A stretch of 25,801 bases of DNA from Chromera velia (Eukaryota > Sar > Chromeraceae): contig JAHBMJ010000962.1 in the NCBI GenBank assembly GCA_018398765.1, positions 17,501-43,301 on the forward strand, in the 5' to 3' direction. Positions 5,188 to 25,761 of this stretch are shown piece by piece. Within the stretch, counting starts at the first letter, position 1; every line of letters begins with the position of its first letter. Both the position numbers and the translations under genes were made by a program. The notes beneath the pieces were generated by a model that saw nothing but the letters and a program-made list of their open reading frames with translations, was not told where the DNA came from and did no database searches.

Positions 5188-7106
5188 ATGGATACGAGAT
5201 GGAGGCATTGGGCAGCTCAGAAACTCATAAGACTGAGTACCGAAGCTCATGAACATCATGGTCTTGCTCTAAGCTCTTCGCTTCCATCATCCTCCATTCG
5301 TTTCCAAGCTACTACAACCACGGCATCTCAAAACAGGAAGAGGGATGTAGAAATGGAAAGTTTTCCTGTCCCGTTTCCGCCTTCAGATTCCCGTCTGGTC
5401 CAATGGGCCCTTCCTCTCAGCGACGGAAGTGCTGAAGCAAGAGGGCTCTCTGTCCCTCATCTTCAGTCCGTCTACCAACAAATTCAGGTTCGCAGGAGCT
5501 TCGGCTCTCTGGTTTCCAAAGCTGGCGCTTCTGCACAAAGAACAGCTCTGGCAGATGGGGGGTGGGCAGGCCAACGGGAGGAAATAACTTTGGAGGGGTC
5601 TCCCGGTTGGAGTTTACCTCTGTCAGAGAGAGAGAGAGATTGCAGAAAGTAGAGAGGGTTGCTGACTGTGTCCCGGGGGAATCTAGTGGTTCCTCCATCT
5701 CATGCACCGAGCTGCCGGGCTCTGCCTGCCGCAAAGGGGTCCGCGAGGGAAAACAGCTGTGTCCTCATGGGAAGCGGGTCTATTTGTGCAAAGACTGCGG
5801 TGGGAAGGGGATATGTGAGCATGGACGCCAGCGCAACCACTGCAAAGAGTGTGGCGGGACGCAAATCTGTATTCACGGACGTTACCGCGCCTGTTGCAAA
5901 GAGTGTGGGGGTAGAGGAATCTGTGAGCATGGTCGGAGGCGCTCGCAGTGCAAAGAATGTGGGGGGGGCTCCATTTGCATCCACGGTCGTTTGCGTGCTC
6001 ATTGCAAGGAATGTGGGGGGAGTGCCATTTGTATTCACGGACGAATCAAGTATGCGTGCGTCGACTGCGGCGGGAGTTCGATTTGTCCACATGGTCGCCT
6101 TCGCAGTAATTGCCGAGAATGCGGAGGGGGTGGAGTTTGCGAGCACGGTCGTTCTCGCTCAGTCTGTAGGGAATGCGGAGGTGGCAGTTTTTGTGAACAC
6201 GGCCGTTTACGCACAACATGCAGAGAGTGTGGAGGCGGCAGCGTGTGTATGCACGGACGTCTGCGGACGAGTTGCAGGGAGTGTGGGGGTGGTAGCATCT
6301 GTGACCATGGAAGACAGAGAAGCGCCTGTGCAGAATGCCAGAAGGACAATCCCGCCTTTGCAGAGAGGCGTAAAAGGCGAAAACTGAGGTACAAAGAGGA
6401 TTTTGTGTACCGATTGGTGCACACTGTTAGGAACTCTGTCCATAAACGCCTCTGCGCCGTTCGAGACAGCAAGTCTCCGTCCGAAATGAAACGCACCCAC
6501 GAGTACCTCGGTTGTTCGTTTCCCGAACTCAAAGCCCACCTCGAGAAGGACAACTTCGACGGCAACCCCGGAATGTCGTGGGAGAATTATGGGAGTTTGT
6601 GGCACGTTGACCATATTGTGCCAATTATGTTTGCAGGAGCGGACGGTCAGAAGCCTGACAGAGACACTCTCGTTTCCCGCCTCCATTATTCCAACCTCCA
6701 GCCATTGTGGTCGGGGGACAATCTTCGAAAGGGGAACAGATTCGTGGGCAAACCGCCCCCGCTGCTCCCTCTTCCACAGCAGGTCCGCTCCGTATCCCGT
6801 CTACCTGGGCAGGTAGATATCAAGGAGCCCCCCTGCGTTCCTAAAACCCCAAGCACGGTCTGGGAGGTAGGCAGCACTCGTCTTTCCCACTCTTGGTTGG
6901 CCTTGACTGCCTGGTGGAATCACAACGATCGTTTGTTTCGAGAGAGGGCTTTAGGGGTGAGGGTTGGCAGGGGGCTCAGGAGTGCAAACAGAATTCCCGG
7001 CTTTCGAATGCAGGCAAGAAGTCTTTCTGCTGTCTTTTCCCACACACCTCCCATCCACACGGAATTCCGGCACGACGTGCCTCTGGCAAACGCTTGCCAT
7101 CCATAG
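5188..7106 (+). CDS. Zinc-unit array + HNH nuclease, module 1 (11 units)
   Basis: Predicted nuclease with an 11-unit Cys/His array (5757-6350), then an HNH domain. The HNH part has a helical lead-in, YLGCSFPELKAHLE, GMSWENYG, then WHVDHIVPI (6600-6626), SNLQPLW (Asn at 6693-6695) and a final N..K in DNLRKGNR, an H-N-N version of the metal-dependent nuclease fold. The frame carrying the array is open from 5436 but has no ATG before the array. The likely start is the ATG at 5188 in another frame, which opens about 150 residues with an Arg/Trp-rich start. The two frames must be joined by a splice or by a shift at the (AG)7 tract (5625-5639). The frame ends at a TAG (7104-7106), after which it continues open into module 2. 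Phage-type HNH enzymes share the core motif; the array is what is unusual. Nuclease activity is inferred. Confidence 0.68.
5625..5639 (+). repeat. (AG)7 tract at a frame switch
   Basis: Seven AG units plus an A, lying where the ATG-headed frame (5188-5652) and the array-HNH frame (open from 5436) overlap. Losing one AG unit would carry the first frame into the second. Confidence 0.85.
5757..6350 (+). repeat. Eleven 54-bp coding repeats (18-residue C-x-H-x6-C-x2-C units)
   Basis: Eleven head-to-tail units with no gap or frame change. The consensus unit is I-C-x-H-G-R-x-R-x-x-C-x-E-C-G-G-x-x, with all four candidate zinc ligands (C2, H4, C11, C14) kept in every unit. Unit 1 starts LCPHG and has Tyr at position 9; unit 6 is distinct (IKY..C, then VDCGG); unit 11 ends AECQKDN and leads directly into the HNH lead-in helix. 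Positions 3, 7, 9 and 10 vary most. Confidence 0.95.
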
Positions 7107-7232
7107 AAGGGGATTGACACAGAACATGAGGCAAGTGGAGTAGTCAGAGACTGCAGCAAAAGAAAAAGAACAGAGCAAGAGGAGGAAGGAAGAGAACAAT
7201 CTGTCAGCGGGGAAGATGGTAAAGGTCCGAAC

Positions 7233-8063
7233 ATGCAGTCTGATTCACGGAGTAGCCGCTGTCCGCACGGACGGAAGCGTTACGATTGCAAAGACTGCGG
7301 TGGGAAGGGTATTTGTGAGCATGGGCGCGTTCGAAGGCAGTGCACGGAGTGTGGTGGGAAGGCTGTTTGTGAGCACGGTCGCCTGCGGAGAACGTGCAAA
7401 GAGTGCGGTGGGAAGGGAATCTGCATTCATGGAAAAAGACGCGAGACTTGTATTGACTGTGGAGGAAGTGCCATGTGTGGCCATGGACGGTACAGATACT
7501 ACTGTACAGATTGCGGTGGGAAAGGAATTTGCGAGCACGGTCGGGTGCGTAATCAATGCAAAGAATGTGGGGGGTCGAGTATTTGTAAACATCAGCGCCG
7601 CAGAAGTGAATGCGCTGAGTGTCAGAAGGACAACCCTTTCTTTATTGCGAGAAGACAGCGGCAGAAAGATGCCAGAAAGATCCGGTATAGGGAGGACCTC
7701 ATCTTTTGCTTGACTGCTCTGACCCGTTCCTCTGTTGCAAAATGCCTTGCAGCCATCCGAAAAGGAAACTCAACCCCTTTTTTTCGTCAGCGATCCCACG
7801 AGTACCTCGGTTGTTCGTTTCCCGAACTCAAAGCCCACCTCGAGAAGGACAACTTTCACGGCAACCCCGGAATGTCGTGGGAGAATTATGGGAGTTTGTG
7901 GCACGTTGACCATATTGTGCCCTTGATGTATCGGGGAGCAGACCGACAGAAACCTGACATAGACATTCTGATCTCCCGCTTACATTTTTCTAATCTTCAA
8001 CCAATGTGGGGGGAAGACAATCGCCGCAAAGGAAATCGTTTTGTAGGAAGCCTTGCACGTTAA
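7233..8063 (+). CDS. Zinc-unit array + HNH nuclease, module 2 (7 units)
   Basis: Second array+HNH module, 276 residues from the ATG at 7233 to TAA. The same frame is open back to the TAG at 7104-7106, so it could instead be the downstream half of module 1. The ATG is chosen because it lies just before the first zinc unit, but the preceding 42 codons (Lys/Glu/Arg-rich) look like a linker, not a leader. Seven units (7257-7634) are followed by QKDN, a basic helix, YLGCSFPELKAHLE, WHVDHIVPL (7899-7925), SNLQPMW (Asn at 7992-7994) and DNRRKGNRF, which completes the H-N-N core. It stops soon after the core and has no zinc-finger tail, unlike the minus-strand relative. The family role is probably site-directed DNA cleavage; the target is unknown. 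Confidence 0.75.
   Translation: MQSDSRSSRCPHGRKRYDCKDCGGKGICEHGRVRRQCTECGGKAVCEHGRLRRTCKECGGKGICIHGKRRETCIDCGGSAMCGHGRYRYYCTDCGGKGICEHGRVRNQCKECGGSSICKHQRRRSECAECQKDNPFFIARRQRQKDARKIRYREDLIFCLTALTRSSVAKCLAAIRKGNSTPFFRQRSHEYLGCSFPELKAHLEKDNFHGNPGMSWENYGSLWHVDHIVPLMYRGADRQKPDIDILISRLHFSNLQPMWGEDNRRKGNRFVGSLAR
7257..7634 (+). repeat. Seven 54-bp coding repeats (18-residue zinc units)
   Basis: Seven contiguous units of the same 18-residue pattern, with all Cys/His ligands present. Unit 1 has the first-unit signature (CPHG, Tyr at position 9). Unit 4 resembles the special internal unit of the other arrays (CIDCGGSA). Unit 7 (ICKHQRRRSECAECQKDN) is the terminal type with the QKDN exit. Confidence 0.95.
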
Positions 8064-8094
8064 GCTCTTTATTTATACGGTTCAAAACAAGTTC

Positions 8095-8126
8095 AAAAGG
8101 TTCACCTTTTTAAGTTTGAACCTTTT
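8095..8126 (+). terminator. Hairpin just after HNH module 2
   Basis: A perfect 10-bp inverted repeat, AAAAGGTTCA/TGAACCTTTT, with a 12-base loop, ending in a T run, 32 bases after the stop codon. Related GTTCAAAA words occur just upstream. In a eukaryote this is more likely a 3'-end RNA structure or a remnant of a repeat border than an intrinsic terminator. The pairing is certain; the role is not. Confidence 0.4.
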
Positions 8127-8797
8127 TTGTATGAACATTTTCTCAGCTTTACCAGTGATAGAGGAACAGTTTATGTGAAGCATTAAAAGTTCAAAACTAG
8201 GTTTGAAGATAAAACTTTTATAGTTTAGAGTTAAACTGAATGTTTACATGACCACACAATAATGAAATCATTATTTTTGGGATGATGTCTTACATAATAA
8301 TATGTCTTGCTAAATTTTATAGGCATATAACATTGAGGTAATAATAATAATAAAACCTTTTTAAATTAAATAACTATATATGATCGATCACGATCAATAT
8401 CGCGTACATACTATTTAAAAAACGCGATAAACTAACAGTAGGCCAGAAATGCATATACAAAAATACTAGGAAAAGATCTTAAAAACATCTCTTCTTGAAG
8501 CCTCAAATGACTCCTAATCTATGATAGGGAACATTAACTACGTGTACAAATAGCCCAGTAGCCGCATTTTAAAAAAATATTAAATATACAGAAATGTTAG
8601 GAAAAGACCTTATAAAAACAACTCCCCTTATAGTTTAAAATTTATTTTGGTCTCTATAATAATGAGTATTAACCACAACATATGTAGCCGCGTTTTTTAA
8701 AAAATAATATTGAATTAACCATACATTATTGGTCTATATAGTGAAACTGATTTAATGAGGTAAACCTCGCTACTAGCTTTGTTATATATAGCTTGTC

Positions 8798-8852
8798 ATC
8801 ATGATCATCATCATCATCATTATCATTATTATTATTAATCGGTCTATAGGCC
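8798..8852. repeat. (ATC)n/(ATT)n tract plus GGTCTATAGGCC, copy 1
   Basis: An ATC run grades into an ATT run and is followed by AATCGGTCTATAGGCC. The same order is seen at 8972-9032, and a shorter version at 9475-9525. Confidence 0.8.
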
Positions 8853-8970
8853 ATATGCAATGCATGAGTCTAGGACAATGCTTTATTGCCCCTTTGCCAG
8901 ACCTGCATCATACAACGGGAGGGGGCTTCATTCTTACAACTCTAAACACCCTGCATCTAGAAGATGCTTT

Positions 8971-8971
<1 letters not shown>

Positions 8972-9015
<44 letters not shown>

Positions 9016-9032
9016 GATCGGTCTATAGGCCT
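8972..9032. repeat. (ATT)n tract plus GATCGGTCTATAGGCC, copy 2
   Basis: More than a dozen ATT units end in GATCGGTCTATAGGCC, shared with copy 1 apart from one base. About 120 bases of unrelated sequence separate the two copies. Confidence 0.85.
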
Positions 9033-9058
9033 AGATTTGATTTGATAGGATTTGATTT

Positions 9059-9081
9059 GATTTGAGCTTCAAGCTCAAATC
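9059..9081. repeat. Perfect palindrome of the GATTTGA repeat family
   Basis: Arms GATTTGAGCTT/AAGCTCAAATC pair perfectly around a single C. It follows a run of GATTTGATTTGA units (9033-9060) and precedes further degenerate copies to about 9115. Confidence 0.85.
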
Positions 9082-9419
9082 TGACCAGATTTGAGGTAGA
9101 TTTGAGATTAAAGTCTAGAGGTCACTTTCAACACTAGTCTCGACAGCACTGAAGACGACATGACACAGTCGATACCACTAGCAAATCCTAGAAAGCCTTA
9201 GAGACAAAAAAATTACTAAAAACTAGACTAAAAGCTAAATTAAGACTCTCAAAATTAATGAGCTATTGTCAAAGCTAGCTAAGAGCTTATATAAGTTTTT
9301 AGCTTTAAGTTAGAGTCATCCTAGAGAGTCACCTCGAAGATTTGAGGTTAAAGGGTCAGATTTAAAGTAGATTTAATAGGATTTGATAGGCCTTATCATG
9401 CTAAAGTTTCTTAGGCCTA

Positions 9420-9459
9420 AGATTTGATTTGAGGTTAAGCCCTACTTCAAATCAAATCT
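9420..9459. repeat. 13-bp inverted repeat of the GATTTGA family
   Basis: Arms AGATTTGATTTGA (9420-9432) and TCAAATCAAATCT (9447-9459) pair perfectly around a 14-base loop. Same word family as the palindrome about 360 bases upstream. Confidence 0.85.
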
Positions 9460-9474
9460 GGTTACTAATCATCC

Positions 9475-9525
9475 TCTAGATCATCATCATCATTATTATC
9501 ATTATTATTATTATTGATCGGTTAT
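9475..9525. repeat. (ATC)n/(ATT)n tract plus GATCGGT, copy 3
   Basis: ATC run, then interrupted ATT run, then GATCGGT; the CTATAGGCC end of the other copies is missing here. Confidence 0.75.
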
Positions 9526-10237
9526 CATTATACGCCGTATCGCTATCAGCCTATAAATAGGCATTTAGCGTTCGGCAGCAACGCATGAAGCAGTTCGGTT
9601 CTTTATAACAGCAGTTCACTTTGATTTAATTATATTTAATCGTATTTAATTCAACCAGTTTATAAATTCTATGAAAAAATAAGGGAGAATTGGCCTTAGT
9701 TTCTGCGATTGCTTCAAATTTGCAGCGTTTAATCTATGTATTTAATAGAAAGTGACATGATTCTAGTGATGAATTTCTGTGCATATGAAACAATTTTGAA
9801 ATCAATAGAGAGTTAGGGGTAGTTAGGGGTTAGGTCAGCGGTCAGGATGGTGCCTAGGGGTGGTGCGGGTTCTCATTTTTATCTTGATATCGAGTTACAT
9901 ATTAGGTAGCAGTAAAATTAGAAGAAAAAAGGGAAGCTTGTGAGGTATGTTTAAACTGTAATAGTCTGCTACCAGGCTTGCCAGTTCACTATTCTTCAAT
10001 TCGACCTCGATGGCTTGAAGATTTTGATTTAAAGTTCCTGTAATCGTACGTCGAATCGTCGTCCATCGTGTCTTCCGGTTGCTTGTGCCCTGAGACTCAT
10101 CTCAAATGGCGCTACATTCTTCGACATTTTTCAAATCGTGGCAAAAACCGCGAAGTCCGCACGCCAATGGTCAGCCAATGGTTGACCGGGTTGACATGCC
10201 TGTAGAAGTATGATAACACGTCGCTAGAACACGTCGA

Positions 10238-11291
10238 CTATTGGCACGTCGATTGCCTGCACTGTTCGGTGTGTGTGCCCAGCGGATCACCAATAACCTC
10301 TAGTGACTGTTGCATCATGCAATGGCATGCTACAAACATGTGCACGACTGTGTTGGAGCCTCCACCTTGTTGCGATAGCAGGTTCCCTCTCGAAATGCAA
10401 GTTGGCAACGGTCGCCGGGGCTCTTTACATCGCATTCCATCACACGATTTGGTGTTGCAGGTATTTTCTTTTCCTTCCAGAACCCCACAGTGCCGTCATA
10501 GTTACGAGTTGCAGGTACTTCAACAGTTTCCCAGCCAAATTCACCGTCGACACTCTTACACCACGGCTGTTTCCCCTCTATGGCAGCATTTGAATTCGAA
10601 CGAAAGGACTCTTTATCGAACCTCTGGGTGCTCCAATCATATAAAGGGAGGTGTTGGCGTTCCCGAGTGCGGTGGGCGACTACAACGGGGAGAATATAGA
10701 GGAGCAGTGAAGTCACTGTGGCGACTTTCCACACGTTTCGTGTCTGTTTCAGCCGTTCTATTCCAAAGCGGTGGAAAAAAAGGTGCACTGTCAATCGGGA
10801 AGCGTCTCTGCAGAGTCTGCACCTTATGACTGTCCCCCCCTGACATGGGAAATGCATGTCAGAGTTGCTGGTAACAGTTGCAGTTTGTTGAATACGCGTG
10901 CGTGGTGCACCATTATAGGGGAGACGGATCCATGCAGTAATTAACTTAATAGATGCATGCATGCATGCATGCAAGAGAATAAAAAAGCAATTTTTTTTAG
11001 CAAAATTCATGCAGTTTCTCGCGCGCGATTTGCGCGCGCCGCAATAATCCCACTGCATGCATGGGCGCAAAAAATACGTACGTCGTATACGTACGCCCCT
11101 TAAACGCCCCGCTGCGTTCAGTTGAATGATCCTTGTCAGATTTCAGAGTGAAGGCACAGCATTTCGATCCGTTGTGCCGTAGCAGCACATTTCAGAGCTA
11201 TTGGGTGGAAGTCTTTGCACGGTGGACACACTGGGGGTCCGTCTCGATCTTGATTGATGGATCGTTGCCTCGAGACGCCAGACAGCTTGAA
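10238..11291. other. Intergenic region upstream of the PPR-like gene
   Basis: Composition returns towards balanced. Overlapping open frames on both strands (10269-10829 plus, 10330-11070 minus) lack recognisable domains and are not called. The last 350 bases hold (ATGC)5 at 10953-10972, an alternating GC/CG tract near 11020-11041, and a hairpin CGTACGT-CGTAT-ACGTACG at 11077-11095, about 200 bases before the ATG of the PPR-like gene. These may lie in its promoter, but nothing shows function. Confidence 0.5.
10953..10972. repeat. (ATGC)5 microsatellite
   Basis: Five uninterrupted self-complementary ATGC units, about 320 bases upstream of the PPR-like gene start. Confidence 0.9.
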
Positions 11292-14200
11292 ATGCTGGGT
11301 CTCTGTTTTTTTCTCTTTCTCTGGGCTGTAACCGACTTTTTCTCTTCGCACGGTATTGTTGTGGCTGTGCTCAGCTTTGTGCGCACTATTTCTTCTAGTC
11401 AGACAGGGGGCAGAGAAGACGCCTCCCGTCTCTTCCAGAAGAACCGGTATGGTCTCACCCCAGGCGGGGATTATTCCTATTACCCAGACCTACCCGGAGT
11501 TTCCTCATCACCAGTGCGGCATCAAAAAATACGCCGCGGTTCACGGGTCGAAGGGAAGTGGGATCCGCAGAGTCCTATTGGGAGGGCTGCTGCTGCGTAC
11601 GGGAGGAAGAAGAAGGATGCCAAGAGACCCTTGACAGATTTTGACTTTGAGCAGTACTTCTTCGCAGCCCTCGCTGACGAACGCCCCGAGCGTTCTCTCT
11701 ACGCTCACACATTCTGTGCGAACGAGATGCGAAAACAGGGGCGGCCCGACCTGTCTGCCAAGATTGTTGAGAACCTTCTCAGACGAAACCTTCCCGTCTC
11801 TGAGGAAATTGTGGGCACCACCATGAAGGCCATCGCAGACAAGGGCCTGGGCAAAGCTGCCATGCAGTTTATGAGGGCCCTGATGGCTCAGCAAAAGATG
11901 CCTGTCGGTGATGGAATTGCGTGGTTAGCGATGGCGGCGTGTCGCAACGCACCCGAGGGTGCTCTTTGGAAAGAGGCGCTGAGTATTTTTGCCAACGTGA
12001 GCAGTCACCGTTTTGTTGACGCGCGTCTGTTGTGTGAGGTTCTTGACCTGTGCTCGAGGGCCCCGGAAGGTGCGCAGTGGCAGGAGGCAGAGAAAATTTT
12101 CCAGAAGGCCCTGCGGTCTCGTCGAAAATTTCGGGTAGAGGGGAGGGTTGTGGAGATGATGGCACGGTGTTATGCACGGGCAAACGAGCAGACAACGCAC
12201 CGCTTGCAAAAAGAAGAGACAGAGGATGACATGCAGTCAGACGAATCCATGCAGTGCCCCCCCAACCCGCCCCTCTCCGACCGCGCACTTGCTCTTCTTC
12301 GACAATTGCCTGAAGGGGAAAAACCCGACACGCCCTTCTACGGGCCTGCGCGGAGAGGGAGACTGGAGACTTATGTGATCCGTGCACTGGCACGTGAACC
12401 GAGAGGGGGGGGGCGTTGGGAGGAATGTTTGTGGTTGTTAGGGGAGATGGAGAAGGATGGGTCGCCGATGTTGAATAACTACCTTTCATGTGCAATCGCC
12501 TGTTCTCGTGCGCCTGAAAAGAACCTTTGGGAAGAGGCGGTGCGAGTGTTCGAGAGAGGGAGACAGCGGTTGCAGGTAGCACCAACTCCCCATGAGTTTG
12601 CCACAATGGTGCAAATTCTCTTGGAGGCGTCGGAGGATTCTGGTTCGATCACTACCCAGTTTCCAGAGGGGCCCTTTGAGGGTATGCGCTGTCTTGAAAT
12701 TGCAGAGAGATACCTCCTTGAATGGTCTCATATTTGGGGGTTCAAAGGGTCTCACCATGCTTATGTCACGTGTGTGATTTTGTGGAGCCACCCCTTCTGG
12801 GAGGGGAAGAGAGCTGGGAAGCTCCTCCAGGTCTTCAAGGCCCGTTGTGCCCAAGCGAGTCCCCATAAGGCAAAATTTTGGAGCGACCTAGACAATTCCA
12901 TGCTGTCCCTCTTTCTGGATGCAGCACAGAAGGGTTGCAGTACTCGTGAGAGCGCCACGCTTGCCGCCCTCCTTCCTGTTGTGTTGGAGAGAAAGTCCCG
13001 ATACGGGACCCCACCAGATGGGGTCTTGTTTGAGAAGATTTTCAATTTTATGTACAGACGCCTGCCGCCCTCTGGGAGAAATCTCCCCGATGCGCAGGGA
13101 TACCAACATGCACTTGAAGTGTACCGCCGAATAAAAAGTGGGGAGATAGGCTCCTGGCCTCCACCCATTGAAGTGTTCAGGAGCCTGTCAGTCCTTCTTG
13201 CTCGTCGTGCGTCTCCTCCCGATTGGAGATCTTGTGTCCTTCTGTTGGATGACCTCAGTGCGTGTGGGGTGTGGGATGCACAGACTGTGACAAACACGAT
13301 GCAAGCCTGTGCAGGGGCTAGGAGGTGGAAGGAGACAGTCCGTTTGTTTGAGGATTTGAGAATGAGGGATCCGGTTGGGGTCACCTCCCAGACGTTTGTT
13401 GCCCTCCTGACGGGTCTTGCTGCGAATCCGGGAGAGGAAAGTCCCCCCGCACGCCATGTCCTTCTTGCAGAGGAGTTCTTTGTTCGAGCCCTTGATCTCG
13501 TTCTTCCAGAAAAGAAAGGGCTGTTGAACGTCAAGGAAGGGTTCAGGAAGTGTGTGAAGGGGATCAGTAGCCAGGCGGGCGTGGCTCCAGTGGAGAGTCT
13601 TGAGGCGATGGGACGAGTTGTCAGTCACATTCGCTCGTGCGCGCTTCCTCTCTCGTTACAGGAGGGTGGGGAGGCGTTGGGTCTCTTTCCGGTTCCTGAC
13701 CAAATCCCTGAGGAGTTCTGGTCGAGGTGGGACGACCTCAGGGGTCAGATTCGTGAACTCATCCTCACAGAGTTTGAGGTGTCAGACTGTTACCAAGAGG
13801 CCGTGAGGAGGTTGAAGGCTCCCTCTCCCTTTCCTAACCAAAGGGGTTCCCCCATCATCCCAGAGGCCTCTGAGAGGCTCCGTAGTCTGCTTGTGACAAA
13901 CCCGGATGGGGGGGCCTCTCTGGAGCGGCAGCCTGGTTGGAGTCCCCTCGTGTCTCTGTATTCTCCAGAGAGCGTACAGAGGGTGCGGGAGAGGCTGTTG
14001 GTGGCTGTGGAGGATGAGGCACAGAATTTGGTGTCTCAATCAGCTCCCAAAAGCCTCAGGCTCCCACGTTACCCCTATCTGCCAAACAGCGCCGGGTGGG
14101 ACAGAACAGAGGCCAAGGTTGTCCGATATGATCCGAACAGCAGCAGTCCTGCTGTGCCTGCTTCGTCTTCTTTGACACGCCCTGCTTCGCCGTCTTTTGT

Positions 14201-15026
14201 TCCGTCAGAGAAGGCCGTGAAGCCAACGCACCGAGACACGCCTTCTCGGCTTGAGGTAGACAGAGAAGGGGTGCGACGGGGGGGGGAGAGGAAGATTGAT
14301 GGTTTGATTTGGGGTGGGGGGAAAGTTGAAGAAGAAATGGACTTTCCACCCGAGAAGGGGCAGGGGGAAAGTGAGAGAGTGTTGAGAGAATCTCGAGGAA
14401 GAGACAGCGGAGATGAATTCGCAAAAGAGGAAGACATTGACGGTGAAGGGGAATTTGACGAGAGCGTAATAGAACAGGTCTTGGAGGAAGGGACCAGTGA
14501 TGCCCTCGGTTCTTCCTCGGGTTCTTTGCTAAAGAGGAAGTATGAATTTGACCACTTGAGGGGTGTATGGGAGGAGGGGGAGGAAGGCTGGGGAGTTGAA
14601 GGGGATGAGACTGGTCCTGGTTTTCTGTTGGCAGACCGAGACGAAGCAGAGGGGCATGTGGATTTTTGGTCGAGCAAGAAGATGCATTCAGATGAATCTG
14701 GGTTGATTGAAGCAGATGAAGATGAAGAAACAGAGTTTGAAGAAGATGAATATCAGGAGGATGAGAGAGAGGAGGAAGGAGAAGAAGAGCTGTCCGAATG
14801 GGGAGAGTCCACAGAGCTGTGGCCCCAGGGGTGGCCGATGGCGGCCTCTTCAGCTCCACAGAGCGAGCAGGATCCGTCTTTACCTGCCAGTGGCCTGAAG
14901 GAAGGAAAAGGTGTTGGCAGGCAAACAATTTCTTTCCAGACGAGCGAAGAGAACAAGAAAAATCAACAACAAAACAAAAAGTCCACAGAAGTGACAGAAC
15001 AACGAACACAGGCTTCAAACTTTTGA
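11292..15026 (+). CDS. PPR-like helical-repeat protein, signal peptide, acidic tail
   Basis: A single-exon protein of 1244 residues ending in TGA. The first ATG of the open frame (11292) begins MLGLCFFLFLWAVTDFFSS, a hydrophobic signal-type segment; a Ser/Arg-rich stretch follows, as in bipartite leaders for complex plastids. From about residue 120 to 750 there are helical hairpins with a recurring motif: APEGALWKEALSIF (near 217), APEGAQWQEAEKIF (near 256), APEKNLWEEAVRVF (near 405) and RRWKETVRLF (near 677). This spacing and the W-x-E-A pattern match pentatricopeptide-like repeats of alveolate proteins. Residues of roughly 1000-1200 are highly acidic and low in complexity, and the end is Gln/Asn/Lys-rich. 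The PPR family binds organellar RNA for processing or translation; a plastid RNA role is inferred. Repeats are degenerate, so a related helical family is possible. Confidence 0.8.
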   Translation: MLGLCFFLFLWAVTDFFSSHGIVVAVLSFVRTISSSQTGGREDASRLFQKNRYGLTPGGDYSYYPDLPGVSSSPVRHQKIRRGSRVEGKWDPQSPIGRAAAAYGRKKKDAKRPLTDFDFEQYFFAALADERPERSLYAHTFCANEMRKQGRPDLSAKIVENLLRRNLPVSEEIVGTTMKAIADKGLGKAAMQFMRALMAQQKMPVGDGIAWLAMAACRNAPEGALWKEALSIFANVSSHRFVDARLLCEVLDLCSRAPEGAQWQEAEKIFQKALRSRRKFRVEGRVVEMMARCYARANEQTTHRLQKEETEDDMQSDESMQCPPNPPLSDRALALLRQLPEGEKPDTPFYGPARRGRLETYVIRALAREPRGGGRWEECLWLLGEMEKDGSPMLNNYLSCAIACSRAPEKNLWEEAVRVFERGRQRLQVAPTPHEFATMVQILLEASEDSGSITTQFPEGPFEGMRCLEIAERYLLEWSHIWGFKGSHHAYVTCVILWSHPFWEGKRAGKLLQVFKARCAQASPHKAKFWSDLDNSMLSLFLDAAQKGCSTRESATLAALLPVVLERKSRYGTPPDGVLFEKIFNFMYRRLPPSGRNLPDAQGYQHALEVYRRIKSGEIGSWPPPIEVFRSLSVLLARRASPPDWRSCVLLLDDLSACGVWDAQTVTNTMQACAGARRWKETVRLFEDLRMRDPVGVTSQTFVALLTGLAANPGEESPPARHVLLAEEFFVRALDLVLPEKKGLLNVKEGFRKCVKGISSQAGVAPVESLEAMGRVVSHIRSCALPLSLQEGGEALGLFPVPDQIPEEFWSRWDDLRGQIRELILTEFEVSDCYQEAVRRLKAPSPFPNQRGSPIIPEASERLRSLLVTNPDGGASLERQPGWSPLVSLYSPESVQRVRERLLVAVEDEAQNLVSQSAPKSLRLPRYPYLPNSAGWDRTEAKVVRYDPNSSSPAVPASSSLTRPASPSFVPSEKAVKPTHRDTPSRLEVDREGVRRGGERKIDGLIWGGGKVEEEMDFPPEKGQGESERVLRESRGRDSGDEFAKEEDIDGEGEFDESVIEQVLEEGTSDALGSSSGSLLKRKYEFDHLRGVWEEGEEGWGVEGDETGPGFLLADRDEAEGHVDFWSSKKMHSDESGLIEADEDEETEFEEDEYQEDEREEEGEEELSEWGESTELWPQGWPMAASSAPQSEQDPSLPASGLKEGKGVGRQTISFQTSEENKKNQQQNKKSTEVTEQRTQASNF

Positions 15027-16552
15027 TTTATAGTTAGCAAGCGTAGAGACAGCTGAGTCACAGCTCAATATACAGAGTATTTTATAATCTTGTCTCGTAT
15101 CTTAGCTGGGGCACCTTTTTAGTTTGAATTCTTAGCAGCGCTGCCTTAAATACCGAGTTTGGTAACTCATTTCTCCCCACTAGAAAATTTACTCGAGAAT
15201 TTACTTTTCAAATTCTTTGGTGTGGAATTCCCTAAGGAATTCTTTCTGACCTACCTAGCGGCCTAGTGGTACTTTCACAATGGATATTAATCAAGCAATC
15301 GATGATCACTCAATTCCATCTTTTACACTTTTTTTCTAGCTAGCTTTTTTTGCCTCTCGGAGAGCCTGTTGTGCAACCAACCGCCACTGTTCCTCCTTCA
15401 ACACTCACTAGCCTGTCTCATGTCCTCTGTGGTGCCTCGGCATGAGCTAGGTCATGAAACATTAGATGAGACACCCGGTGCATCGCAGCTCTCTGCCATA
15501 CAGAGTCTGCAGTCCACTACACAGTCATAAACATATCAAAACCTACATCAAAACTTTCTAAACTCTCGACCTCAACCACCTATGAGCTCTTCATATCTTC
15601 CCACGACCTTGCTTTTTCCGTTAGGAGCGGCTGATCGTCACTCCTTCTATCGGAGTGCTACCGCTGCCGCTGCCCCTCCCTCAACGCAGTCCACTGTCTG
15701 CATCCGGACTAGCTTGCTCTCATGTACGTACACATCTGTCATCAATGTATGTTAATGTGGGGAGAGATCATGCATTTGAAATCTGTTTCTAGCATATCCG
15801 CCTTACTTTTGTCCTAGCTTTTGTCCTTCCATCCCTCTATTCAACACTGCAACACTTCTGGCTACATTGCAATACTCTAGGTTCTACTCGATTAGTTTTT
15901 TACGGTTCAGTCGTCCATAAGGATGAGCTATTACTAGAGAATGGGTACACTGCTGAATCCCCCCCCCTCCCCGGAGACTCCCCCCCTTTATCGAAGTAGC
16001 CTCGCGTACCCTTGATGCACGCATTCGTTACCTGGGGCTTGTAGGTGGGCAACTTGTAGCCAAGCTCGGATTCGGCCACACACCTTTCCATACCTCTGCC
16101 CCCGCTTCTTGCTTAACAGTTCCACCAGCCTGCACAAAAATGTGTTGGCTTCCTTCTGGAGTATGCTATCAACCAGGCTCACTAATGGAATAAACTGACA
16201 TTGAAGTCGTATGCCCTGTTGCCATATGCCCCTACGCGTAAAGTGGTACCAACGAAGTTAAGACAATCCGTACCAAGTCGAAGCTTCACGGCCTGCGTCC
16301 AAAGCGAGCGTAGGTGACACAAAAATGTATACACATGCATGTAGCACGCACATCGGATCGATTGAGCATACACAAATACAGTCAGCTAGGCAGAAAGTAC
16401 GTACTGCATCAGACTGGCCTATCTAGAGGCCAAGTCTAGGGCCAAACAGCGAGACACTGGGTGTCATGGGCCGCCTTAATATTGCGAGCGCCTTTAAATG
16501 CCTTTCTCACTTTAGGTGAATGGATGCGAACGGAACTTGCATGTCATGCCCC
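15027..16552. other. Intergenic region with no supported gene
   Basis: Follows the PPR-like stop codon. It has a small palindrome, GAATTCC-CTAA-GGAATTC, near 15226, a C-rich run around 15958-15990, and several GCAACACT-type words near 15841. No frame of more than about 65 residues looks protein-like. No RNA gene was recognised. Confidence 0.55.
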
Positions 16553-16835
16553 GGTTGGCCAGAGCCTAAGTGGTGGCTCGCCGGCTAGGCGTAGGATATT
16601 AAAAACAATAATCACAAATAATAATCAAAACAAAAAAAAAATGATGATATGATTCAAATGCAAAAAATGTACAATTTGACCTATAGGTTACTACTAGGAC
16701 CTTCCGGTCACCTAAAAACGTCTTCAAAAATTTAAATTTATTGTTTTAGGATTTTTGAAAGCAATTTTATCGATTTTTATGGAGATAAATTTTGAAGTTA
16801 GTCTGTACACGATAGGCTGACTTACACAATTTTTG

Positions 16836-17228
16836 CATTTCCCTTATGTTTGGCATATCGATCGGGGGGGAGGAAGGTTGGATTACGCTCTGTTGACAGA
16901 CTGTTGTGCCGACGAAGTCAAGAGACTCGGCCTTCTGTCCGACGAGGGCCTGTCCGGCAGACGGAGTCTTGACATAGACAAATATGCCCGTGCTCTGGAA
17001 GGTCGCCTCATTGAAGGGCGTGTATGGGGTGGGTATGTGGAAATGATTTGCTTCTCATTCATGAAGGACGTGCGGATTCACGTCTTTAGAAAAGAAACTG
17101 ATGTGTACAGAAGACTGTGTGTCCTAGGTAAAAAGGAGATGAAGAAAGAAATTTTTTTACTTTGGCAGCAGAGAGTGGAAGGGGATCACTACGATATGCT
17201 AGAGCCTCATTCTGTTCTCCAAGCCTAA
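16836..17228 (+). pseudogene. OTU cysteine-protease-like domain, C-terminal part
   Basis: An open frame to TAA with no upstream ATG. It reads DIDKYARALEG, then GRVWGGYVEMICFSF and VRIHVF, and ends WQQRVEGDHYDML. This order (a W-G-G-x-x-E helix, a V-x-I-x-V strand, a closing H-Y) matches the C-terminal half of OTU-type deubiquitinases; the His in DHYDM would be the catalytic one. The N-terminal D-G-N-C part with the catalytic Cys is not seen within the preceding few hundred bases, so this is a 5'-truncated copy or the last exon of a split gene. It sits between inverted repeats, suggesting capture or carriage by a DNA element. OTU assignment is from motif memory, moderately sure. Confidence 0.5.
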
Positions 17229-17286
17229 AAGCTGTGATTGAGGTCATTGTCTTTGCTCTCAATGTATCTTAATGAAAACAATTGTA

Positions 17287-17292
17287 AATAAA
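17287..17292 (+). promoter_or_regulatory. AATAAA polyadenylation-type signal
   Basis: Canonical AATAAA 59 bases after the stop of the OTU-like frame, in an AT-rich context. It fits the 3' end of a once-transcribed gene, but AT-rich DNA yields this hexamer often by chance. Confidence 0.3.
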
Positions 17293-17975
17293 GTGTTTCG
17301 TAGATTTTTATAAAAAAGATCAAAGCAGTTAGAACTTACATCTTGACTAGTGTTTTGAAATGACTTGACCTAGGTTTTGATCGTTTAATTCAAAAAAAAA
17401 AACTTGAAAAAATGACGTTATGTTTTATTATTTGATTTTGATGTCCTACGCCTAGCTCACCGGTTTTAACCGCAATATTATAAATACAATACATATTTTA
17501 TACTATAAATTAGTAAATGTATATATAAAACTGAATTGAATTGAATTAAGGCGGTTAAGGCCGGTAACTTACCACTTAAGCTCTCACCAACCAAACTACT
17601 TCATATTTATTATTCAGTTTGAAATTTTTGAATTTTAGAATGTTTAAGTTCAAAAATTAATACAGCTTGAAACACTGAGTTTATCAAATTGATTAGATAC
17701 TTTTTCTATTTTTTTCAGCTAAAAATTGCACAAAAAACTCCAACAGCAACCTCCGACAGTGGACTGCGGGCAAAATCCGGAACATTACTGGCAATGGATT
17801 CAATGCTATGCTACTAGCTATGCTATGCCAACAAGCTTGATCGAATACAATTTATGCTTTTCCTACGAACATAATTCATACAGCAGCTACTAGAACAGCT
17901 AGGACTAGCTCATACAACAGTGGGCAAGACTTCTGTGTGGGCATTAGGTGCAACTGCAAGCTCATCTGCTTCGCC

Positions 17976-20684
17976 TTAGAGAGGCATTTTGTGTGTCTTC
18001 ACCATATGGAGACGCAGACCTCTTTGTGAAGCAAAAGATCTTTTACATCCAGAAACTGTGCAGCAAAATAGACCCTCAACGTTGTCTTTCTGATTTTTGG
18101 GATCGGGTTTGGGAGGCTTCCCAATGAACCGGTTCCCTTTACGCAGGTTTTCTTCGGCAGACAACGGCTGCAGGTTTGAGAAATGGAGGCGGGAAAGTAG
18201 CATTGCCATGTCTGGCATCTCACCACGAGGCACTTTGTAATTGATAGGCACAATATGGTCAACATGCCAGCCCCCCCTTCCGTAATTCTCCCACGACATG
18301 CCGGGATTGTCGTTAAAGAGTTTCTCGAGGTGGGACTTGAGGCCTGAGAATGAACAGCCAAGGTGCTGTTCCGTACGCATGCGAAAGGGTAGAGGAGGCT
18401 TTCCGTCTCGAATGGCGGCCAAACACCGCCGAACAGCCATACGCGTGATTTTTGACAATCGGTAAACAACGTCTTCCCTGTATCGAACCCTTTCAGCATC
18501 CCTCTGCCGCTGCCTTCTCTCTGCAAAAGCGGAATTATCCTTTTGGCATTCTGCACACGAACTCCGTTTGCGATTGTGCTCACATATCTGTGACCCACCA
18601 CACTCTTTGCAGTCCCTCCTCCTGCGATGGTGCTTACAAATGCCATTTCCTCCGCACTCTTTGCAATCGTACCTGCGCCTGCCGTGGGGACAAAGACATT
18701 TGCGTGTGGAGTTTTTTCCACGAGGACCTGTTGTGAAGACAGACTGAGCTGTCTCGAGCCCCTGTGCTTCCTCTCCTTGAACGTTCTTTTCTAGGTTTTC
18801 AGAATGGGCGTCGCACTGTCTCGAAGTACAAAGTGGAAGACAGTCTCCCCCACAAGCAGGTGGATCAGTAAGGGTGTCAACGCGTGGGTCCGGTGAAGGG
18901 GGAGGGAAGGAAACGGACCCCTGCCTGATGTGTGTTCGAAAAGGAGCAGGAGGGAACCCCACACCAATTTGCCACCCTGAAATCACTCCCAATCGATGGA
19001 GAGGAACGCTTCCCTCTATATACGGCGCGACAGTATGGAAGGACCGTCCGCTTTTCCGACATGCAGGAGAGCCAGCCCACGGCGACAAACTTTGGTCATG
19101 GCTGACCCTAACAATATTGAAAAGGGGGTGAGGGTTGATGCGGCTTTGCTGTCTGACGACATCGGAGGGATGCTGAACCGGTGGTGGTCTCCCGACAAAT
19201 CTGTTCCCCTTACGGAGATTTTCCTCCGACCACAACGGCTGTAAGTTGGAGAAGTGGAGACGAGAAAGTTGGGTGTGCGCGTCTGGCTTCTGACCGTTTG
19301 CCCCCCGGTACTGAATAGGCACAATATGGTCAACGTGCCACATGCTCCCATAATTCTCCCACGACATTCCGGGGTTTCCGTGGAAGTCGTCCTTCTCCAG
19401 GTGGGCTTTGAGTTCGGGGAACGAACAGCCGAGGTACTCGTGGGTGCGTTTTTTGTCGGAGGGGCTTTTGCCCCGCCGAAGATCTCTCAAGCATCTCGAG
19501 ACAACAGACCTCATTGTCTGTGTTAAACGGAAAACAAACTCCTTTCGTAGTTCTTGTCTTTTGTGAAAAACAGGGTTGTCTTTCTGGCATACTGCACATC
19601 GGTATCGCAAGCTGCCGTGTTCGCAAAAACTACCACCCCCGCAGTCTCTGCAATAGGAGCGTATGCGACCGTGTTGGCAAATTGAACCACCTCTGCAGAG
19701 TTTGCAAAGTGTGCGCCGACGACCGTGTTCGCAAATACTACCACCCCCACACTCCCGGCATTGGCTGCGTTGCCGTCTGTGCTCACAAATAGCACTTCCA
19801 CGACAGTCCAGACAGGAATACTTGATCCGACCGTGAACACAAATTGAGCCCCCCCCACATTCCTTACACTGTGAGCGTCTCTTACCATGCTCACATATTC
19901 CTGTCCCCCCGCACTCCTTACAGTAAGAGCGATGGCGTCCGTGCTCGCAGATACCTTTGCCACCGCAATCTTTGCAGGCGTACTGCTGTCGTCCATGCGG
20001 ACACAGACTCTTTCTCCGACTCCCGGCTTTCATCAAATCGGTGGGAAACCGTGAAGTTTCTTTTTGGGTGAGGCCCAGACAGTCAGAGTTGTTGGTCTCT
20101 CTCTCTGTTACAATCTGCCCTGCAGCTGTCCCGAGACCTCTTGTTGACAAGACTGGCCCCATAAAGCGAGAGTGCCTTTCACAAGACATCTCTTCTAGAT
20201 TTGCGCACTCTCTTTCTGTGGAAGGTTTTAAGCGTTCTGCAAGTGTAGAGACAAAAGAAGCAGAACAGAACCCCCTACGATCCTCAAAGATTCTGAACGC
20301 ATAGACGGACCGCACAAGGATAGAATGGCGGCATCTTGCTTCAAGAGCACCTTCAGTGCAGATGGGAGATTTACGAGCCAGACAATTGTCTGATGGGGGA
20401 CATGGAACAGATTGCTGCTCCTGTTCGGGATCGGTGTAAGTCCTCGGCACAGGTAAGTTTTCTTCTTCCAAAAGCTGTTGACTACTTGAAGTACCACGTC
20501 TCAAGTCGTTCGTGACAAGGCCGTCACGAGCACCAATATTCCAGAGGGGATTGCTGATTGTCTGTCTAGTTCGTCTCCTCTGTTCACGTGACGAGAGAGC
20601 GGGAGATCTGTTCAAAAGAGTGGACACTGGGCAAAAGAGACGACCTCGAACGCGACGAGAGAATGTCGCTGTGATGCGCTTCAT
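17976..20684 (-). CDS. Two-module zinc-unit array/HNH nuclease with C2H2 finger
   Basis: An uninterrupted 902-residue frame from ATG to TAA. Residues 1-45 are Arg-rich with one acidic residue, like an organellar presequence. Module A: eight zinc units (227-370), then HNH with WHVDHIVPI (449-457), NLQPLW (480-485) and N489/K492. A Pro/Ser-rich linker (about 500-660) follows. Module B: three units (664-717), then HNH with WHVDHIVPI (806-814), NLQPLS (837-842) and N846. The C-terminus has a classical C2H2 finger: C875, C880, H893, H898. It is the intact counterpart of the two plus-strand modules, on the opposite strand across the PPR-like gene. HNH enzymes cut DNA using a metal ion; here both H-N-N cores look complete. 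Two nuclease domains in one chain could make paired nicks, which is inference. No introns are needed, though the linker could hide one. Confidence 0.8.
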   Translation of the reverse strand: MKRITATFSRRVRGRLFCPVSTLLNRSPALSSREQRRRTRQTISNPLWNIGARDGLVTNDLRRGTSSSQQLLEEENLPVPRTYTDPEQEQQSVPCPPSDNCLARKSPICTEGALEARCRHSILVRSVYAFRIFEDRRGFCSASFVSTLAERLKPSTERECANLEEMSCERHSRFMGPVLSTRGLGTAAGQIVTERETNNSDCLGLTQKETSRFPTDLMKAGSRRKSLCPHGRQQYACKDCGGKGICEHGRHRSYCKECGGTGICEHGKRRSQCKECGGGSICVHGRIKYSCLDCRGSAICEHRRQRSQCRECGGGSICEHGRRRTLCKLCRGGSICQHGRIRSYCRDCGGGSFCEHGSLRYRCAVCQKDNPVFHKRQELRKEFVFRLTQTMRSVVSRCLRDLRRGKSPSDKKRTHEYLGCSFPELKAHLEKDDFHGNPGMSWENYGSMWHVDHIVPIQYRGANGQKPDAHTQLSRLHFSNLQPLWSEENLRKGNRFVGRPPPVQHPSDVVRQQSRINPHPLFNIVRVSHDQSLSPWAGSPACRKSGRSFHTVAPYIEGSVPLHRLGVISGWQIGVGFPPAPFRTHIRQGSVSFPPPSPDPRVDTLTDPPACGGDCLPLCTSRQCDAHSENLEKNVQGEEAQGLETAQSVFTTGPRGKNSTRKCLCPHGRRRYDCKECGGNGICKHHRRRRDCKECGGSQICEHNRKRSSCAECQKDNSAFAERRQRQRDAERVRYREDVVYRLSKITRMAVRRCLAAIRDGKPPLPFRMRTEQHLGCSFSGLKSHLEKLFNDNPGMSWENYGRGGWHVDHIVPINYKVPRGEMPDMAMLLSRLHFSNLQPLSAEENLRKGNRFIGKPPKPDPKNQKDNVEGLFCCTVSGCKRSFASQRGLRLHMVKTHKMPL
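18534..18695 (-). repeat. Three 54-bp coding repeats (18-residue zinc units), module B
   Basis: The shortest array: a first-type unit (LCPHGRRRYDC), one internal unit (ICKHHRRRRDC) and a last-type unit ending CAECQKDN. Two units have lost the HGR glycine (HHR, HNR). Confidence 0.95.
19575..20006 (-). repeat. Eight 54-bp coding repeats (18-residue zinc units), module A
   Basis: Eight contiguous units with every C2/H4/C11/C14 ligand kept. Unit 1 is the CPHG/Tyr type. Unit 4 (IKYSCLDC) matches unit 6 of the 11-unit array. Unit 8 ends CAVCQKDN. Two units have Arg for Gly in the CGG turn (CRGS, CRGG). Confidence 0.95.

Positions 20685-22106: not shown

Positions 22107-25761
<3,655 letters not shown>

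Follow-up and report, generated by a model that had tools for sequence, protein, structure and literature searches.

Tandem 18-residue CxH...CxxC arrays ahead of HNH nuclease cores at two Chromera velia loci, and their relatives in viral contigs

We analysed a 25,801-nucleotide stretch of the Chromera velia genome (assembly GCA_018398765.1, contig JAHBMJ010000962.1, positions 17,501 to 43,301 of the forward strand; hereafter the window, numbered from its first letter), in which two loci carry four modules, each consisting of a tandem array of C-x-H-x6-C-x2-C units followed by an HNH nuclease core. A six-frame scan found 29 perfect matches to the unit pattern in the window, every one inside the four modules, against a chance level of 0.05 matches per window (mean of 20 mononucleotide shuffles). 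The units follow each other with a period of exactly 54 nt, or 18 residues, so that the gapless layout proposed in a reading made earlier from the sequence alone (hereafter the sequence-only reading) was recovered in full within the modules it had delimited. Locus 1, on the plus strand, holds module A, with an array of 11 units (5760–6338) and an exit, lead-in and core at 6339–6755, and module B, with seven units (7260–7622) and its exit, lead-in, core and stop codon at 7623–8063. On the minus strand, locus 2 holds module C (eight units, 19587–20003; exit, lead-in and core, 19188–19586) and module D (three units, 18546–18692; exit, lead-in and core, 18117–18545). All arrays were delimited by motif scan. 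In all four modules the array runs directly into the sequence QKDN, the constant exit claimed earlier, and from there into a basic, helical lead-in and the core. The first unit of every array has the form C-P-H-G ... Y-x-C-K-[DE]-C-G-G, with Y at position 8, and every last unit ends C-A-[EV]-C-QKDN; the first and last units look like conserved caps.

The nuclease cores matched phage protein families, with no significant match in Pfam or NCBIfam. All four matched phrog_1035, labelled 'endonuclease VII', with E values of 6.7e-7 (A), 2.1e-7 (B), 1.2e-7 (C) and 2.3e-11 (D), and phrog_28061 was also matched (A, 5.7e-4; C, 7.7e-6; D, 2.4e-5); for module A alignments delimit the core as well. Among the core motifs listed in the sequence-only reading, DHIVP and N..K are present in all four modules, and NLQPL in three, module B reading NLQPM. 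Nine aligned cores, four of them from the window, all keep the catalytic D-H, N and N..K without variation, and the loss of catalytic residues that had been named beforehand as evidence against a nuclease is accordingly absent. When module B was searched by tblastn, 112 phage records were matched, for example p100 of Rhizobium phage 16-3 (33% identity, E = 3e-16, in the nuclease half), together with six plasmid records, none of which spanned 80% of module B.

Locus 2 is a single uninterrupted open reading frame (ORF) of 902 residues, identified by ORF scan from an ATG at 20684 to a stop at 17976 on the minus strand, which contains both modules in the order N-terminal extension of more than 220 residues, eight units, core, linker, three units, core and a C2H2-like finger (17988–18071, minus strand; PF18408, E = 5.4e-5, and zf-C2H2, E = 0.03, both under the Pfam cut-off). 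Locus 1 is less simple. Its putative first exon or exons, encoding an N-terminal extension, lie at 5188–5649 on the plus strand, open from an ATG at 5188 to a stop at 5650–5652, in a frame unlike that of the array; at least one intron would therefore be required, and 151 frame-compatible splice candidates picked out no single site. The module extents given by the sequence-only reading thus held for the ORF at 20684–17976, while the ATG at 5188 proved not to be in the array's frame. Modules A and B share one frame, broken by a single stop (7104–7106), which would be removed by a predicted 294-nt phase-0 GT-AG intron (6813–7106, plus strand) with the top splice-consensus score among 131 frame-compatible candidates. 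Since C and D lie in one ORF and this predicted intron would join A and B, both loci probably encode two-headed chains, each locus being one gene. The N-terminal extensions of the two loci could be aligned (37% over 57 residues, E = 2e-5, in a single pairwise BLASTP comparison with composition statistics and SEG switched off), and the loci are probably inverted paralogues with related extensions. The N-terminus of locus 2 is basic, with 10 basic residues and one acidic residue in 37; that of locus 1 is not clearly so (five basic and three acidic in 40).

We also compared the cores at the DNA level. Across the six module pairs, nonsynonymous divergence (dN) was 0.33–0.39 outside a 42-codon tract described below, and synonymous divergence (dS) was 1.64 for A-C and saturated for the five other pairs. 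As dN is far below dS, the cores are kept by selection, and the window cores are under purifying selection. The 42-codon tract lies in the catalytic core and is nearly identical as DNA in A (6498–6623, plus strand), B (7797–7922, plus strand) and C (19317–19442, minus strand). Codons for the same amino acid were identical at 36 of 38 sites within the tract and 22 of 54 outside it for A-B (p = 4e-8), at 30 of 37 versus 13 of 49 for B-C (p = 9e-7) and at 30 of 36 versus 26 of 53 for A-C (p = 0.0015). Outside the tract the third positions of A, B and C are near saturation, and module D lacks the near-identical tract. Localised gene conversion among three modules on two strands would be the simplest account, and constraint at the DNA level is an alternative.

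The array is predicted to form a confident periodic structure. The AlphaFold model of module B (47 alignment rows) had a mean predicted local distance difference test (pLDDT) score of 88.4, with 91–97 over the 10-residue blocks of the array apart from the first (80), and displayed a bridge, turn and short helix every 18 residues, the core ending strand-strand-helix. A phage array protein with another C-terminus was predicted with the same 18-residue pattern (mean pLDDT 68.7; array blocks 85–92, falling to 69 at the end). The rod of metal modules proposed in the sequence-only reading could have been contradicted by such a prediction, and the model of module B gave no such outcome. Position 9 of the unit was the most variable, both among the 29 window units and among 126 distinct viral units (in which the ligand positions were fixed by the search), and positions 6 and 8 were also high. 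The loop from 5 to 9, in which positions 5 and 7 are basic, may plausibly make the contacts, and weak constraint would explain the variation as well. Sharing of a metal between the CxxC of one unit and the CxH of the next is less likely, because all four arrays start with CxH and end with CxxC and because the final CxxC of p100 stands just before QK.

For the 18-residue unit itself we obtained no significant match in Pfam, NCBIfam or the PDB. Array A matched phrog_37414, a family whose function is not given (E = 9.3e-5), as did loci L132 (1.9e-5) and L126 (2.6e-4); members of this family may be further array proteins. Several known cysteine-rich elements were considered and rejected. The EsV-1-7 repeat gave no Pfam match and its spacing, C-x4-C-x16-C-x2-H, is unlike that of the unit; this domain is among those in Pfam. 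The central domain of DnaJ (CxxCxGxG) had no Pfam match at E 1, and zf-C2H2 had none in arrays A to D at the same threshold, its only match being the finger after module D. The homing modules NUMOD and AP2 had no Pfam match in the stretches scanned, which lay beyond the N-terminus of locus 1 and beyond the first ~190 residues of locus 2. Matches of array A to NF010329 (E = 0.42), of two antibody-like or cytokine-agonist chains in the PDB (E = 0.37 and 0.86) and of a phage array to the TFIIB zinc ribbon (E = 0.0016, under the cut-off) were set aside as due to chance or too general.

Array units joined to the same type of core were found in viral contigs. Of 170 viral core loci considered, 98 were read, some being different stretches of one contig; a CxxC...CxxC pair stood ahead of the core in 66, and array units in three, L098, L107 and L163, the last from the same contig as L107. 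L098 and L107 have seven units and a window-type core. In a tree of 89 cores, built on few columns, with many forks left open and a bootstrap still unsettled, the four window cores grouped with L098 and L107 in one clade (support 96/93). The L098 contig encodes a Pox_A32-type ATPase (E = 8.3e-17), a ResT/TelK telomere resolvase (E = 2.7e-11), a helicase-primase and a GIY-YIG nuclease. Because no capsid gene was recognised on it (neither the putative capsid nor the ATPase had a significant match when its sequence was searched against the PDB), we infer rather than read off that the contig is Polinton-like; for the L107 contig the case is weaker still. Polinton-like viruses carry HNH and GIY-YIG homing endonucleases according to the portions consulted of a paper whose main text is without the word 'zinc' (PMC12220804). 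The L098 contig (G003) is also palindromic around its array gene, near 17.3 kb, with two inverted identical array genes, which together with the telomere resolvase hints at hairpin chromosome ends. A Foldseek search of BFVD with the module B model returned 30 matches at E ≤ 0.001, including models from giant viruses. The top match, A0A481Z8I3 of Pithovirus LCPAC304 (E = 3.3e-24, 42% identity over 270 columns, TM-score 0.40), is labelled a DnaJ central domain protein; as it aligns with array plus HNH, that label is probably a misannotation, and the predicted models suggest that the protein is probably a further array nuclease. The hosts of the viruses that share array and core are probably microbial eukaryotes.

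The unit is not confined to this core. IMG/VR was scanned with 12 array stretches, which gave nine loci from 19 candidate stretches, and with the DNA pattern in correct frame, which gave 34 stretches; from these, 35 candidate array ORFs passed a loose array filter. Nuclease types were assigned by motif, backed by profile matches for those ORFs that were scanned. A recognisable nuclease-type C-terminus was present in 27 of the 35: three carried the window-type core (two distinct, L127 repeating L098), four were of the PF02945 endonuclease VII type, eight carried an HNH of the phrog_3118 type, five were of the phrog_3322 type and seven of a CQFPNC type, which had no match in the libraries scanned and resembles endonuclease VII by motif alone. 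As phrog_3118 and phrog_3322 overlap, we count at least three kinds of nuclease joined to the array in phage contigs and apparent Polinton-like virus contigs. The eight remaining ORFs comprised three apparent chance matches, two cut by the end of the stretch, one with a stop, one with an apparent insertion sequence and one ending after three units. Of ten array proteins scanned, three matched PF02945 at E 0.1 and two of these passed the family's cut-off; six contigs had two or three separate array genes. In one contig (L111, 120–827) the frame of an array nuclease runs, compared with its relative in L123, into what by eye looks to be a transposase gene of the IS200/IS605 type. A second type of zinc repeat on a phage nuclease is seen in an endonuclease VII-like protein at L159 (7658–8152), whose CxxC...CxxC repeats are spaced differently.

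The positions of array genes in phage contigs look like those of homing endonucleases. In G010 and G014 the array gene lies between the terminase and portal genes. Four further contigs share the block X1, X2, helicase/primase, polymerase N-part and polymerase C-part, and their array genes occupy different slots in it. The array gene of G008 lies in the gap from X2 to the helicase and that of G011 in the gap from the helicase to the polymerase, whereas in G012 and G017 it separates the two parts of the polymerase, where the nuclease partners differ. At the X2-helicase slot G012 (89 bp) and G017 (111 bp) have no gene, and G011 has a phrog_1035 nuclease; at the helicase-polymerase slot no nuclease gene is present in G008 (230 bp), G012 (218 bp) or G017 (4 bp); and at the slot that divides the polymerase G008 has a phrog_2633 endonuclease, with no gene in G011 (117 bp). 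The break in the G017 polymerase falls just ahead of a motif that is continuous in its relative L143, a site of the kind that mobile nucleases classically occupy. In phage T4, free-standing homing endonucleases lie between genes that related phages conserve, and the HNH enzymes MobA and MobE nick (PMC2988022). In four related large phage contigs (L156, L159, L160 and L161) the DNA polymerase gene is in two frames, and the gap holds different endonuclease genes or none. A search for empty sites with a DNA polymerase as query matched only the query itself and one relative.

The setting of the two loci in the window looks eukaryotic. An ATP-binding cassette (ABC) transporter ATPase domain at 23079–24324 on the minus strand is spread over separate frames (PF00005, E = 4.7e-8, and E = 0.006, the latter under the cut-off), presumably split by introns, and between the loci an uninterrupted frame of 1298 codons (11130–15026) has weak similarity to pentatricopeptide and tetratricopeptide repeats (PPR/TPR), under the Pfam cut-off, and a long acidic tail. 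The 5 + 9 window frames scanned showed only PPR/TPR-like, ABC transporter and finger matches, with no viral hallmark gene and no transposase, and no group I intron was detected in the window between 4800 and 21000 at E 1, where one chance match to a small RNA was the only result.

The clade shared with viral array nucleases and the homing-like positions of the phage relatives support a reading to which we give moderate confidence, namely that the window encodes homing-type HNH nucleases, selfish or formerly so, whose zinc array binds nucleic acid and whose architecture, here two-headed, is shared with viruses. Each gene would make one chain with two heads, each head being an array of zinc units and an HNH core. 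The array would be a rod of 18-residue metal modules (CxH ... CxxC) with one metal per unit, binding nucleic acid along its length and placing the core at its C-terminal end; the core would cut, each head most probably nicking a single strand. A chain with two heads could thereby break both strands at a composite site, and repair from a copy that carries the gene would spread it. For this genome we infer metal, nucleic-acid binding, cleavage and homing alike. The selfish nuclease of the sequence-only reading is thus partly upheld, with modules that are real, cores that are intact and constrained and viral relatives placed as homing nucleases are; the occurrence of the unit on several viral nuclease types and the probable two-headed gene at each locus had not been foreseen.

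Several results weigh against this reading. Arrays look rare in named phages: among 50,697 records, tblastn of three viral array proteins and array A gave either nothing or mostly matches in the nuclease half with a few weak ones, and ten further loci, mostly from named phage or plasmid records, had no tandem units. The four contigs with the shared replication block were found through their arrays and are hence not an unbiased sample, their array genes have nuclease partners other than that of the window, and no group I intron reached the gathering score in six phage stretches, which gave only tRNAs. The structural models point the same way. The nuclease half of the phage array model was poor, the PDB fold search with that model gave no match even at E 10, and the search with module B gave none at E 0.001 (the non-significant matches between E 0.88 and 10 including the Cas9 HNH, EXOG, Vvn, NucA and many autotaxin chains); the 30 BFVD matches had low TM-scores (0.23–0.41 by query length). 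Finally, position 2 in the window units and positions 16–17 in the viral units are roughly as variable as 6 or 8, so that the variable sites single out no one reading loop. Among weaker matches, array A alone gave three in the phage collection (best E = 4e-3), and the one such region that was read had no tandem units; a crAss-like match (H70) spanned 88% of a viral array protein but has CxxC modules and no CxH units; and one scan of bacterial genomes gave two weak matches, one with other CxxC repeats (L106) and one without tandem units (L105).

A bolder version, in which the unit is a sequence-reading module with a code of its own (variable positions 9, 6 and 8 flanked by basic 5 and 7) and the array a swappable targeting part used by phages, giant viruses, small viruses of eukaryotes and a protist genome, making these nucleases natural counterparts of the zinc-finger and TALE kinds, is distinctly unlikely in our view, as the entropy ranking lifts only position 9, and not 6 or 8, above 2, 16 and 17. 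It is less doubtful, although we would still bet against it, that the array serves as a ruler or spacer, fixing how far the HNH core lies from a binding part without itself reading sequence. The zinc-finger-containing linker of I-TevI is a distance determinant of this kind (PMC2988022), and the periodic, confident model and highly uniform units would suit such a role; set against this, arrays of 2 to 11 units would give very different spacings, and most viral ORFs hold, by eye, little beyond array and nuclease that could bind. An alternative that we regard as unlikely is a domesticated host enzyme, a virus-derived, organelle-targeted nuclease acting in recombination, repair or intron or DNA turnover, whose array would provide general affinity for DNA or RNA. 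Purifying selection on the cores, the basic N-terminus of locus 2, the related extensions of the two loci and the adjoining PPR-like gene, of a typical organelle class by its sub-threshold match, would all fit; however, the N-terminus of locus 1 is not clearly basic, and two two-headed copies also fit a selfish gene.

The endonuclease VII label of the best PHROG match and the PF02945 matches among the array proteins raise the question of whether RNA or branched DNA is what the array binds, with the core acting on junctions as endonuclease VII does. We consider such an RNA- or structure-directed nuclease improbable, since PHROG labels are annotation and the places of the phage genes, next to those for polymerase and terminase, resemble homing sites. 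Even less credible is that the loci stem from a viral insertion and are now functionless pseudogenes in decay: locus 1 does need at least one predicted intron, but locus 2 reads through 902 codons without a stop, each array runs on without a break and has four ligands in every unit, and the cores keep their catalytic residues with dN far below dS.

Compared with known systems, the closest relatives of the window cores are the phage HNH proteins of phrog_1035 and phrog_28061, such as p100, with which they share the motifs W-x2-D-H-x2-P, N-L-Q-P and N-x2-K; p100 also has a zinc module with a final CxxC-QK ahead of the core, as in the window. In these families a single CxxC...CxxC module before the core is usual, though not universal, whereas all four window modules have CxH...CxxC arrays and each gene probably has two heads. 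The L098 and L107 proteins have one head each and an N-terminal CxxC module before the array, unlike the probably two-headed window genes. The likeness to A0A481Z8I3, with its DnaJ label, comes from alignment of models. The phrog_37414 profile matches the unit, with no nuclease named for that family. By their sequence, the window cores appear to have the His-Me finger, GIY-YIG or similar core that marks free-standing homing endonucleases. The seg and mob nuclease genes of T4 lie in the intergenic spaces that separate conserved genes, and homing nucleases bind through parts built of small modules, with no tandem 18-residue zinc array mentioned in the parts of that account at hand (PMC2988022). 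A nuclear mobile element of eukaryotes likewise places a His-Me finger nuclease in a eukaryotic genome, as far as the available text goes, but that element combines an I-PpoI-like His-Cys box nuclease with a transposase (PMC9587614), which was absent from the window frames scanned. Engineered zinc-finger nucleases, like C2H2 arrays, similarly place tandem metal modules ahead of a nuclease. C2H2 repeats are longer than the 18-residue unit, have the pattern CxxC...HxxxH and are joined by linkers; homing nucleases are usually hard to retarget, binding and cutting being intertwined. Our results suggest that the array can be exchanged among selfish nucleases and probably steers them on DNA. If this is true, phage contigs, viruses of eukaryotes and a nuclear genome share a modular targeting part made of a very short tandem metal unit (2 to 11 per array, on at least three types of nuclease), which has no significant Pfam or NCBIfam match and probably bears the wrong label in one record from a giant virus. 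Apart from the phrog_37414 family, we found no description of a tandem 18-residue array common to several nucleases in the libraries and the literature searched, the latter leaving out most subscription papers. Within those libraries and that literature, the catalytic core and the lifestyle are of known kinds, and the tandem 18-residue array on several nucleases is the new element.

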